A DNA stretch of 39,244 nt, taken from an uncultured Gammaproteobacteria bacterium. Its GTDB lineage: Bacteria; Pseudomonadota; Gammaproteobacteria; Pseudomonadales; Pseudohongiellaceae. Under the pieces are notes generated by a model that did no database searches, was not told the origin of the DNA, and was given only the letters and a program-made list of their open reading frames with translations. The translations under genes and the position numbers were made by a program. This document shows, in pieces, positions 1 to 39,244 of the stretch (position 1 is its first letter; each line of letters begins with the position of its first letter). Location: positions 1-39,244 of the forward strand of contig CAJXPR010000022.1 in assembly GCA_913058135.1 (NCBI GenBank), in the 5' to 3' direction.

Positions 1-39
1 AGTAGATCGTCGGCAGCGTCAGATGTGTATAAGAGACAG
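1..39. other. Nextera sequencing adapter (artefact)
   Basis: The first 39 bases are not genomic. They contain the Nextera Read-1 adapter (TCGTCGGCAGCGTC) followed directly by the 19-bp Tn5 mosaic end, AGATGTGTATAAGAGACAG. The six bases before it, AGTAGA, match the end of the Nextera i5 index AGAGTAGA as I recall it. The biological sequence begins at base 40. Confidence 0.98.
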
Positions 40-32596: not shown

Positions 32597-34276
32597 ATGG
32601 CAGACAGTAAGATGGCAAGGGCTCACGAAACGGCAGCATGGCGTAAGCTCCAGGCTCATCAGGTTCAGTTATCCTCGTCGGACACCCGCATCACCGATCT
32701 GTTTTCGCGCGACCCGCACCGCTGTTCAGCACTCACCTTTGACTGCGGCCACATTCGGGCTGATTTTTCCAAGCACCTGGCAACGCCGGAAACACTGAGC
32801 CTGTTAACGGAACTTGCTGACGCCCAGTCGCTTCCCCAGGCCATCGCCGATCTGTTTAACGGGACGCTCGTCAACAACACCGAGCAGCGCCCTGCCCTGC
32901 ACATGGCCCTGCGAGGCCTGGACGTAGTGGCCAACCCCGGCATCAGGACAGCGGTCGACGCGGCGCTGGTACAAATGGAAACCCTGGTCAGTGCCGTGCA
33001 TACGGGTGCCTGGCAAGGCTATGCCGGCGAGGCTGTCCGCGATGTGGTCAACATTGGCATCGGCGGTTCCGATCTGGGTCCGGCCATGGCCACCCGGGCG
33101 TTGCGCGCCTACCATCAGGGCAGTGTTCGCTGCCACTTCGTCTCCAATGTCGACCCGGCGCATCTGCACAGCTGCCTGGAGATGCTGCGACCGGAAACCA
33201 CCCTGTTTGTGGTGGCCTCAAAGTCCTTTACCACGCTGGAAACCATGCAGAACGCTGAACAGGCACGCCGCTGGTTTATTGCCCGGGCCGACGACAGGGC
33301 ACTGGCGGAGACCCGGGTGCATCAGCATTTTGTAGCGGTCACCGCGAACAAAGAGGCGGCGCTGGCATTTGGCATCCGGGACAGTCAGATATTTCCGATG
33401 TGGGACTGGGTCGGTGGCCGCTTCTCTCTTTGGTCAGCCATCGGACTGCCGATCGCTTTTGCCGTTGGCATGCCAGCCTTCCGTCAACTGCTGGCCGGCG
33501 CGGCACTGGTGGACCAGCACTTTGCGAGCGCGCCACTGGCCGCCAATGTTCCGGTTCTTATGGGGCTGTTGACCATCTGGTATCGCAACTTCTGGAATGC
33601 CGGCAGCCACGCCGTACTGCCTTATGCCCAGGATCTGGAGCTGTTGCCCGGCTTTTTGCAGCAACTGGAAATGGAAAGTCTGGGCAAGTCGGTCTGTCGC
33701 GACGGTGAAACCACGGAACTTGCTACCGGCCCGGTCATCTGGGGCAGCGCCGGTACCAATGGCCAACACTCTTTTCATCAACTGCTGCATCAGGGCACGG
33801 ACATGATTCCGGCGGACTTTATCGCCGTCGCACGACCCACGGCACCCGACAACCTGGTGCAGCATCAGCACCTGCTGGCCAACTGTTTCAGCCAAAGCCG
33901 GGCCCTGATGACAGGAAAATCCCGACAGCAGGTGCTCGACGAATTACACGCCGAAGGGGTTGATATTGCCCGGGCGGAATCGCTGGCCGCGCACAAAGCC
34001 GTGCCCGGCAACCGACCCAGCACCACCCTGCTGCTGGACGAACTCAATGCATTCAACCTGGGCAGCCTGATTGCCCTGTACGAACATAAGGTTTTTGTGC
34101 AAAGTGTGCTCTGGAATATCAATGCATTTGACCAATGGGGTGTTGAAATCGGCAAACAATTGAGCAAGCCGGCATTTGCCGCGCTGACGGGTGATGACGC
34201 TGCAGCACAATCGCTGGACGCCTCCAGCCAGGCACTGATCCGCCACTGCCTGCATCAGGCCGGGAGTAAAGAATGA
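32597..34276 (+). CDS. pgi: Glucose-6-phosphate isomerase
   Basis: A 559-residue enzyme that interconverts glucose 6-phosphate and fructose 6-phosphate. Family blocks are NIGIGGSDLGP, VSNVDPAHL, ASKSFTTLET, the first Pgi signature in FPMWDWVGGRFSLWSAIGLP and the catalytic GTNGQHSFHQLLHQG. The C-terminal GSLIALYEHKVFVQSVLWNINAFDQWGVEIGK contains the second signature, here in two parts: LIALYEHKVFVQ and NINAFDQWGVE. Its length is normal. The stop overlaps the start of the RimB-RimK fusion gene as ATGA. With the PPi-type phosphofructokinase it covers upper glycolysis, and its substrate pool also feeds manC and galU products downstream. Confidence 0.97.
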   Translation: MADSKMARAHETAAWRKLQAHQVQLSSSDTRITDLFSRDPHRCSALTFDCGHIRADFSKHLATPETLSLLTELADAQSLPQAIADLFNGTLVNNTEQRPALHMALRGLDVVANPGIRTAVDAALVQMETLVSAVHTGAWQGYAGEAVRDVVNIGIGGSDLGPAMATRALRAYHQGSVRCHFVSNVDPAHLHSCLEMLRPETTLFVVASKSFTTLETMQNAEQARRWFIARADDRALAETRVHQHFVAVTANKEAALAFGIRDSQIFPMWDWVGGRFSLWSAIGLPIAFAVGMPAFRQLLAGAALVDQHFASAPLAANVPVLMGLLTIWYRNFWNAGSHAVLPYAQDLELLPGFLQQLEMESLGKSVCRDGETTELATGPVIWGSAGTNGQHSFHQLLHQGTDMIPADFIAVARPTAPDNLVQHQHLLANCFSQSRALMTGKSRQQVLDELHAEGVDIARAESLAAHKAVPGNRPSTTLLLDELNAFNLGSLIALYEHKVFVQSVLWNINAFDQWGVEIGKQLSKPAFAALTGDDAAAQSLDASSQALIRHCLHQAGSKE

Positions 34277-35730
34277 GCACACAGGACAACTACCCTGATA
34301 GCGGGGCACCAGGCGCCGACAGGATCATTGTGGGCAGCGAGGAATGGTGTGCCCTGCCTACCCTGGGCATTCCGGCGGTAAAGGTGCGTGTCGACTCAGG
34401 CGCCAAGACTTCCTCATTACATGCATTTAATATCCGGTCGTTTCTGCGCGCCGGCAGCTCATGGGTCAGCTTCGAAGTTCACCCCCTGCAGAACAACCGG
34501 CGGACCATCATTCGTTGCGAAGCCGAAGTCATCGACAAGCGCGTCATCAAAAGTTCCAGTGGTATCGGCGAAAAACGTTACGTGGTGCGCACCAGCCTGC
34601 AACATCGTGACCGGCAGTGGGACATTGAGCTGACGCTGACCAATCGCGACTCCATGGGTTATCGCATGCTGCTGGGCCGTGAAGCCATGAACGGGCGCGT
34701 TCTGGTAGACCCCGCCGCGAGCTTTCTGGGCGGCGACATCAAACACAAGCAGATCGAGGCCCTGTACAAGGAACACACCCGGGAAACCTCGGGTCTGAGT
34801 ATAGGCCTGCTGGCCAGCAACCCCGAGCTGCCCAGCAACCAGCGCATCATGGAGGCTGGTGAAGAGCGTGGCCACCGCATCCGTTTTTATGACGTACGCC
34901 AGTGCTACATCAAGCTGGATGCTGAACACCCGGAAATTCACTATCGCGGCGGCCGTCTGCTCAATGGCCTGGATGCTGTCATTCCCCGTATCAGGCCGGA
35001 TCTCACATTTTATGGCTGTGCTCTGGTGCGGCAGTTCGAGAACCTGGGGATCTATTCATTGAACAGCGCTGCGGCTATCAGCCATTCGCGCGACAAGCTC
35101 TACTCGTTGCAGCACCTGTTGCAGCAGGGGCTGCCGATTCCTACTACCGGCTTTGCCGACAGCCCTCTGGATTCGGATGATCTGATTGACATGGTCAATG
35201 GTGCGCCGCTGGTCGTCAAACTCCTTGAAGGTCCGCAGCGGCGCGGCGTGGTGCTGGCAGAATCCAAAACCGCTGCGGAAAGCCTGATTAACGCTTTCAA
35301 ATCGCTGCAGGCCAATTTGCTGGTGCAGGAGTATGTCAAAGAGGCCGAGGGCAAATCCCTGCGCCTGCTGGTGGTCGACAACAAGGTGGTTTGTGCCGTT
35401 GAGCGGCAGGCCCTGCCCGGGCAGTTCCGCAGCAACAAGCAGCATGGCACCAGTATCGTAGCGGCACGCATCAGCAGCGAGGAACGGCGCATTGCCATCA
35501 AGGCGGCCAAAAGCATGGGCCTGCGGGTAGCCGGCATTGATATTATCCGGGCCCGAAAAGGTCCGTTGCTACTGGAGGTGAGCAGTTCGCCATCACTGGA
35601 CGACATGGAAGATGTCTGCGGCAAAGACCTGGCCGGCGCCCTGATCAGCGCCATCGAAAAACAGCTGGGCTGGAAGCGCCGGCTGGCCACTCCCATCGGC
35701 AATGGCGATACGTCATCGAACCCGACTTAA
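34273..35730 (+). CDS. RimB-RimK fusion: protease plus ATP-grasp ligase
   Basis: A 485-residue two-domain protein. Residues 17-160 form a retropepsin-like ATP-dependent zinc protease domain (RimB/DUF785), with the active-site motif VDSGAKTSSLHA, Asp41 catalytic, and LLGREAM near its end. Residues 175-470 form a RimK-type ATP-grasp ligase: IPRIRP, SRDKLYSLQHLLQQGLP, VVKLLEG, LVQEYVKEAEG, AGIDIIR. RimK adds glutamate to ribosomal protein S6 in E. coli, and RimB partners it in Pseudomonas. The metal-binding end of ATP-grasp, usually EVNSSP, is EVSSSP here: Ser437 replaces Asn. It overlaps pgi by four bases and the GNAT gene by one. The target is unknown. Confidence 0.88.
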   Translation: MSTQDNYPDSGAPGADRIIVGSEEWCALPTLGIPAVKVRVDSGAKTSSLHAFNIRSFLRAGSSWVSFEVHPLQNNRRTIIRCEAEVIDKRVIKSSSGIGEKRYVVRTSLQHRDRQWDIELTLTNRDSMGYRMLLGREAMNGRVLVDPAASFLGGDIKHKQIEALYKEHTRETSGLSIGLLASNPELPSNQRIMEAGEERGHRIRFYDVRQCYIKLDAEHPEIHYRGGRLLNGLDAVIPRIRPDLTFYGCALVRQFENLGIYSLNSAAAISHSRDKLYSLQHLLQQGLPIPTTGFADSPLDSDDLIDMVNGAPLVVKLLEGPQRRGVVLAESKTAAESLINAFKSLQANLLVQEYVKEAEGKSLRLLVVDNKVVCAVERQALPGQFRSNKQHGTSIVAARISSEERRIAIKAAKSMGLRVAGIDIIRARKGPLLLEVSSSPSLDDMEDVCGKDLAGALISAIEKQLGWKRRLATPIGNGDTSSNPT

Positions 35731-36218
35731 TGACTTCCGCCGGGCCCGCTCATGCCACGATCAGCTTCCGCAAGGCCCGCCCGCGGGATATGGACTGGGC
35801 ATACCAGATTTTCAAGACCGGCATGCAATCGTACATCACGCAAACCTGGGGCTGGGATGAACTTTTCCAGGAACACAGCTTTTTTGCCAACCTGCCGGCC
35901 TCCGGTTTTGTTATTGCCAGTATCGACGCGCCCGCCGGGTCACCCGCAGAAGCCGGTCAGGTCGACATTGGCGGGTACTGTCTGAAACCAAAAGCCGATC
36001 ACCTGTACCTTGAGATGTTGCTGATCGACCCGGCCTGGCAGCGGCGAGGATACGGTTCCGCCATCATGGCGGAGGTCATGCGCGAAGCGCACCGCCGCGA
36101 TATGGCTGTTCGCCTGAGCGTATTAAAAATCAATCCCGCCTACCGGTTCTATCAGCATCTGGGCTTTGTCATCGAGACCGAGGACGATATCCGTTACCGC
36201 ATGATCAGCACAGCCTGA
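35730..36218 (+). CDS. GNAT-family N-acetyltransferase
   Basis: A 162-residue acetyltransferase with the GNAT fold. The acetyl-CoA pyrophosphate loop is QRRGYGS, within LYLEMLLIDPAWQRRGYGSA, and the C-terminal half has RLSVLKINPAYRFYQHLGF, typical of the family. An N-terminal stretch (RPRDMDWAYQIFKTGMQSYI) covers the substrate side. The start codon shares one base with the stop of the RimB-RimK gene (TAATG), so it is coupled to it. Acceptor unknown; a ribosomal protein or amino-sugar substrate would both fit a RimI-type GNAT. Confidence 0.85.
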   Translation: MTSAGPAHATISFRKARPRDMDWAYQIFKTGMQSYITQTWGWDELFQEHSFFANLPASGFVIASIDAPAGSPAEAGQVDIGGYCLKPKADHLYLEMLLIDPAWQRRGYGSAIMAEVMREAHRRDMAVRLSVLKINPAYRFYQHLGFVIETEDDIRYRMISTA

Positions 36219-39195: not shown

Positions 39196-39244
39196 CTGTC
39201 TCTTATACACATCTGACGCTGCCGACGATCTACTCTGTGTAGAT
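39196..39244. other. Nextera sequencing adapter (artefact)
   Basis: From 39196 the sequence is the reverse complement of the Tn5 mosaic end (CTGTCTCTTATACACATCT), then GACGCTGCCGACGA, then TCTACTCT, which is the reverse complement of the i5 index AGAGTAGA, then GTGTAGAT, the start of the reverse-complemented P5 sequence. It is library-derived, and matches the adapter at the other end. Confidence 0.98.

Follow-up and report, generated by a model that had tools for sequence, protein, structure and literature searches.

What does the ligase half of a protease-ligase hybrid do in a cell that has a second, free-standing ligase of the same family? The question is raised by rimBK, a gene on the 39,244-nucleotide stretch of DNA analysed here (the window) from an uncultured marine gammaproteobacterium, in which a RimB-type protease domain is joined to a RimK-type glutamate ligase domain. 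Based on sequence comparison we suggest, with moderate confidence, that the RimBK protein would cut polyglutamate, its RimK half having become a pseudo-ligase, and that ligation would fall to the free RimK encoded elsewhere in the genome.

The RimBK hybrid

The rimBK open reading frame (ORF) is uninterrupted from start to stop and encodes 485 amino acids. Three Pfam domains follow one another in the product: PF05618 (RimB type, 'Zn_protease'; E 2.2e-33), Rimk_N (PF18030, residues 175-269) and RimK (PF08443, residues 273-461; E 3.7e-51). The fusion of a RimB-like protease to a RimK-like ligase that was described in an earlier note on this DNA is thus borne out. The RimB half carries the D(T/S)G motif as DSG, and D41, S42 and G43 are invariant across 26 aligned rows; its score on the RimB equivalog model NF052261 (132 bits over residues 17-152) falls below the cut-off of 200. 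The solved structures closest to the C-terminal part are the RimK chains 7qyr, 7qys, 4iwx and 5zct, and the N-terminal part matches chains 9g58 and 9g59, named 'putative ATP-dependent zinc protease'. In Foldseek, RimK structures ranked top, and no structure for the RimB part was among the matches listed. The AlphaFold model, built with 26 sequences, has a mean predicted local distance difference test score (pLDDT) of 76.1, with values below 50 at residues 292-324, within the ATP-grasp part; no claim on active-site geometry is therefore made.

The fusion is not new: RimBK hybrids were published in 2025 (PMC11957791), and the window protein, in which one ORF encodes first RimB and then RimK, is of this known type. 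In that paper rim genes are reported from 2226 of 5959 accessions, 12% of which have rimBK (chiefly Flavobacteriales and Rhodobacterales), and rimBK with an extra rimK forms a class of 0.9%. The window genome likewise has a free RimK, encoded at C8:19485-20378, with canonical site residues. A PF05618 search of the window genome hit the fusion alone, with no second RimB domain.

Alteration of the ligase site

The window genus is Pseudohongiella, as assigned by the nearest named relatives of the locus (a gammaproteobacterial metagenome-assembled genome, MAG, at 96% and a Pseudohongiella MAG at 92%); NCBI places it in the Pseudohongiellaceae, Pseudomonadales. Among 15 genomes of the genus, all have a free RimK and 14 the fusion, the exception (G004) being 85% complete.

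The earlier note had pointed to a Ser at residue 437 in place of Asn and suspected that it bears on ligase activity. The change is real: the window motif reads EVSSSP, and Ser437 aligns with Asn262 of E. coli RimK, which we take to be a metal ligand. Asn is present at this site in 54 of 54 free RimKs and Ser in none, in support of the suspicion. Ser437 by itself was rejected as an explanation, the site being Asn in 6, Ser in 4 and Thr in 4 of the 14 genus fusions. Some eleven changes affect the ligase site or its surroundings, and they include S7A, R8S, G66R, S68D, T146P, G148R, D187S, H215Q, G218T, N262S and G266S; R216 is also altered, to His. Of 104 positions invariant (at least 97%) in the 54 free RimKs, 28 are changed in the window protein, as are 6 of a chosen set of 19 in the active site (G148R, D187S, H215Q, G218T, N262S, G266S). 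Across the 14 genus fusions, position 148 is Arg or His, 213 is Asn, Lys, His or Ser, 218 is Thr, Asn, Ser, Gly or a gap, 262 is Asn, Ser or Thr, and 266 is Ser or Ala.

Residues S7, R8, S68 and N262 of Pseudomonas aeruginosa RimK are in contact with the glutamate chain; the pocket owes its shape to R211, H215 and R216 (PMC10092738). The window protein has Ala, Ser, Asp and Ser at the positions of the four contact residues. Two of these replacements are subfamily-wide, eroded or not, with Ala or Gly at position 7 and Ser or Thr at position 8 in all of 80 named fused loci, including intact members in records titled Flavobacterium and Prolixibacter. This hints that even an intact RimBK of the subfamily may not use the tail of ribosomal protein S6. 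Altered loops are found in 24 of the 80 loci (L155-L177, L197), and the other 56 keep G148, D187, H215, G217, G218, D248, E260, N262 and G266. The titles of L167, L179 and L197 (Klebsiella pneumoniae, Chloroflexi and Rhodoferax) do not fit the kinship of their genes to those of Pseudohongiella-type or other gammaproteobacteria, and these are probably mislabelled MAGs.

Erosion of the fused ligase and the free RimK

A set of 137 fused proteins was assembled from 28 rows longer than 440 amino acids, 67 of the 80 named loci (13 lie in genomes already included) and 42 from further searches. Counting fusions directly from search rows was rejected, because many class-level rows have an internal stop and represent adjacent, separate rimB and rimK ORFs; 51 rows were checked, and 23 were excluded, with RimK ORFs of 302-322 amino acids (22 rows) or 416 amino acids (G040). 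The site was called eroded when at least 3 of the 19 active-site positions were changed, positions 145 and 147 having been dropped as variable in free RimKs. The set of 104 positions was taken from free RimKs alone. For 22 genomes, free-RimK status is based on a single match at E 1e-70, with at most four candidates scored per genome, and draft genomes may conceal a copy. Dropping 17 rows of unknown status left 120, or 115 distinct sequences: five pairs, all intact and without a free RimK, are identical and probably represent one genome sampled twice.

A free RimK accompanies 32 of 34 eroded sites and 15 of 86 intact ones (15 of 81 once the five identical rows are removed). The 104-position count gives nearly the same split, with 22-65 positions changed in eroded and 11-22 in intact fusions. 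Erosion extends beyond the window clade to G806, G310, G406, G052, G375, G617 and G831, and the free RimKs of eroded genomes fall into at least three groups (G806 with its own genus, G310 with G406, and the window clade). Within one genus, g174, the fused-only genomes G832, G834, G835 and G837 have none of the 19 positions changed, and three genomes with a free RimK (G310, G406 and G831) have 12, 12 and 13 changed, including E260G and N262V; G827, also with a free RimK, is changed only at H215N. G806 groups with G433 and G443, in which the sites are intact and a canonical free RimK is absent.

Seven genomes with an extra protein of 46-48% identity (ORF of 403-481 amino acids) were counted as lacking a canonical free RimK, as was G617. 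Some intact RimBK genomes hold such an extra RimK-like protein (45-48% identity to E. coli RimK, ORF of about 400-480 amino acids); it was seen in G433, G441, G456, G459, G460, G466, G467, G485, G573, G617 and G545. Two RimK-matching ORFs of fusion length (482-522 amino acids) per genome are present in G441, G446 and G467.

Selection on the two halves

Over 10 pairs within the genus, the ratio of nonsynonymous to synonymous substitution rates (dN/dS) is 0-0.040 for the RimB half, 0-0.044 for the N-terminal part of RimK and 0.009-0.081 for its ATP-grasp part, as compared with 0.005-0.030 for free RimK (6 pairs). A dS above 1 is frequent, and three values were not computable. In the 14 genus fusions, variation is seen at 8 of the 19 active-site positions, 20 of the 85 other core positions and 78 of the 182 that remain. 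In the free RimKs of the genus (8 sequences) none of the 19 varies, and in 100 intact fusions 2 of 19 do, versus 59 of 85 other core positions; this contrast is somewhat helped by the choice of the 19 positions, which followed an initial inspection. By these figures the RimK half is under purifying selection and maintained, and its catalytic face appears to be less constrained.

The protease motif D[ST]GA[KR]T is present in 131 of the 137 fusions. The six without it are G113, G086, G432, G749, G668 and G545, of which only G432 is eroded, and the G432 gene is cut, its contig beginning inside it.

Ribosomal protein S6 as a substrate

By the earlier note, a genome lacking a Glu-tailed S6 and a RimA-like partner would speak against its reading, and as regards S6 this is so. 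S6 of the window genome (L006, G000:C50) ends in DSDEDDK after many aspartates, and the final residue in 14 S6 sequences of the genus is Lys, Asn or Arg, never Glu. Among relatives without the fusion, S6 ends in Glu in some and otherwise in others, so that the end residue is not decisive. An S6 of Pseudomonas fluorescens with a penultimate Lys was not glutamylated (PMC4741518). On these sequences S6 is a doubtful target of the window system. The genus S6 has its Asp-rich tail encoded in the genome (Asp makes up 16 of the 30 C-terminal residues in the window genome), as though the acidic tail came ready-made.

Interpretation of the altered ligase half

If RimBK of the window is a protease with a pseudo-ligase half, the free RimK would add glutamates and the RimB half would remove them, and the RimK half might have a docking or regulatory role towards the glutamate chain, the free RimK or a nucleotide, rather than act as a ligase. 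The ancestral RimBK may have done both the adding and the trimming; once a free RimK was present, the fused ligase could have become less needed and eroded. A broader proposal, which we put forward tentatively and hold to be nearly as probable as not, is that bifunctional RimBK proteins have repeatedly become specialised trimmers in the presence of a second RimK, with the fused ligase giving up its chemistry and being retained as a binding or regulatory pseudo-ligase, at several stages of decay. The window genus would then represent a partial stage, G310, G406 and G831, with E260G and N262V, another, and G052 and G375 would be further gone.

Several observations weigh against these proposals. 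An intact fused site is kept in 15 of 47 genomes with a free RimK, and no canonical free RimK accompanies the eroded fusions of G424 (genome of 2.6 Mb) and G617; G427, a close relative of G424, has one. On a tree built without the 19 columns, erosion amounts to 5 changes, with 4 independent pairs on supported branches, of which about 3 have erosion with the free RimK and 0.1 the opposite (p 0.125 or more); several rows, G052 above all, are long and of unsure placement. A rerun with seven more genomes and without G052 and G545 gave 32 of 34 versus 15 of 91, 5 changes, 4 pairs and a median p of 0.25. The association of erosion with the free RimK is thus suggestive and, once relatedness is counted, unestablished, five changes being too few for significance. 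Moreover, the 19 positions were selected after the first table had been seen, and S7A and R8S, which also occur in intact relatives, are no sign of loss by themselves. K100, K141, D248 and E260 of RimK presumably serve ATP and metal; of their counterparts in the fusion, the presumed ATP lysines K275 and K316 and the acidic D423 are unchanged throughout the 14 genus fusions, and E435 is replaced, by Asp, in G011 alone, so that nucleotide chemistry may survive in the genus. Finally, the fusion still scores above the cut-off of the RimK equivalog model NF007764 (S6--L-glutamate ligase; 336.3 versus 331 bits), although passing a family score does not amount to being a working ligase.

Because these presumed nucleotide-binding residues are kept, the main rival is that the RimK half still works as a ligase, with another acceptor or another amino acid, and remains the partner of the protease on some other target. 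We regard this as unlikely. The retained lysines and acidic residues, the purifying selection on the RimK half, the passed RimK score and the genus S6 without a Glu end, which makes another target plausible, all fit it; yet a fixed new specificity should come with a conserved new site, but the residues at the altered positions change from one species of the genus to the next, and acidic residues are lost in other eroded lineages (E260G in G310, G406 and G831). That the protein is an ordinary bifunctional RimBK, adding and trimming S6 glutamates with the changes tolerated, is more improbable still. Its family scores pass and the full-length ORF is conserved in 14 of 15 genus genomes, but all 56 of the 80 named loci that lie outside the window clade and all 54 free RimKs keep G148, D187, H215, G217, G218, N262 and G266, S6 ends in DDK, and a second, intact RimK is present. 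The idea of the earlier note that an adding and a trimming enzyme jointly tune one target finds no support, many invariant ligase sites being altered beside an intact free RimK. A decaying passenger without function is very improbable: catalytic positions do vary in the genus, but the dN/dS of the ATP-grasp part is near that of free RimK, which disfavours a pseudogene, and the ORF is of full length in every genus genome except the incomplete one.

If the broader proposal is true, RimBK would be a bacterial ATP-grasp pseudoenzyme seen at several stages of its decay. The intact, partly and fully eroded forms, some within one genus, offer a natural series for probing roles of the RimK domain besides ligation. 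They also give reason to ask why a published RimBK cuts polyglutamate without adding being seen.

Comparison with known systems

That published protein is RimBK of Desulfotalea psychrophila (DP2392, Q6AKK4), which likewise has the RimB domain N-terminal to RimK in one polypeptide and cuts polyglutamylated S6; glutamylation of P. fluorescens S6 by it was not observed, and RimBK 'may lack this activity' (PMC11957791). Erosion of the ligase site is not discussed in the passages on RimBK of that paper. Nor was a report of ligase erosion in RimBK found in the literature searched (titles, abstract openings and passages), a search with most subscription papers outside its reach.

Pseudomonas has both domains, a RimB-type protease and the RimK fold, as separate genes of a rim operon; here they are fused, the RimK half has other residues at glutamate-contact positions, and a different contig encodes the free RimK. 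RimB of P. fluorescens stimulates the ATPase activity of RimK and suppresses glutamylation of S6 (PMC7343187). RloA-RloC of P. aeruginosa also combines a RimB-related retropepsin with an ATP-grasp protein, but the protease is secreted and the genes are separate (PMC12239564), and the score of the window protein is higher on RimB than on the RloA models. TTLL12, with a TTL-like (ATP-grasp) domain, is treated in a paper that uses the word pseudoenzyme (PMC3520985); being eukaryotic and with another partner domain, it is an analogy and implies no kinship.

Locus and neighbouring genes

Table 1. Features of the rimBK locus in the window.
Feature	Position	Strand	Basis
rimBK hybrid gene, 485 amino acids	34273..35730	+	single ORF with PF05618, PF18030, PF08443
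RimB-type retropepsin domain, residues 19-152, DSG motif at residues 41-43	34327..34728	+	PF05618
RimK half (pre-ATP-grasp and ATP-grasp), residues 175-461	34795..35655	+	PF18030, PF08443, NF007764, Foldseek
Ser437 codon (= E. coli RimK Asn262)	35581..35583	+	alignment
GNAT acetyltransferase gene adjoining rimBK, not RimI	35730..36218	+	PF13508 E 7.3e-12; rimI model 22.6 bits versus cut-off 86.4
pgi, glucose-6-phosphate isomerase, upstream of rimBK	32597..34276	+	PF00342 E 4.6e-176; NF001211 737 bits

The 3' end of pgi overlaps the start of rimBK by 4 bases, and the GNAT ORF shares one base with the rimBK stop codon, at 35730, as the earlier note had it. In relatives the spacing of rimBK and GNAT ranges from an overlap of about 16 bases to about 66 bases apart, and the exact one-base overlap does not appear to be a conserved feature, as far as the ends of tblastn matches indicate. 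As for the tie to pgi proposed in the earlier note, the data extend to gene order alone, which is conserved: in the 24 named loci of Pseudohongiella and close relatives, GNAT is present in all and pgi in 23, the one without a visible pgi (L177) ending at a contig edge. Of the other 56, L188 has both genes and L178 pgi alone (flanks of up to 3.5 kb). The order pgi-rimBK-GNAT accompanies an intact ligase site in L188 (G443), and such a locus is present in G806 too.

The earlier note had compared the GNAT with RimI, and such a role is not supported: the protein is not RimI, as it fails the cut-off of the rimI model (TIGR01575; Table 1), and the RimI of the genome lies on contig C23 with 110.1 bits. 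The solved relatives of the GNAT are assorted acetyltransferases with weak scores. A combined ribosome-modification module is consequently unsupported, the GNAT not being RimI and S6 ending in DDK. Elsewhere in the window genome (G000:C8:32509-34306), an ATP-grasp ORF and a GNAT-matching ORF (81 bits on rimI) sit near each other, some 12 kb away from the free RimK.

A 19-base sequence occurs in exact copies at window positions 21-39 (+) and 39196-39214 (-), one close to each contig end. We take it to be the transposase (Nextera) mosaic end; these are probably adapter remains, and ORFs at the contig ends are therefore unreliable.

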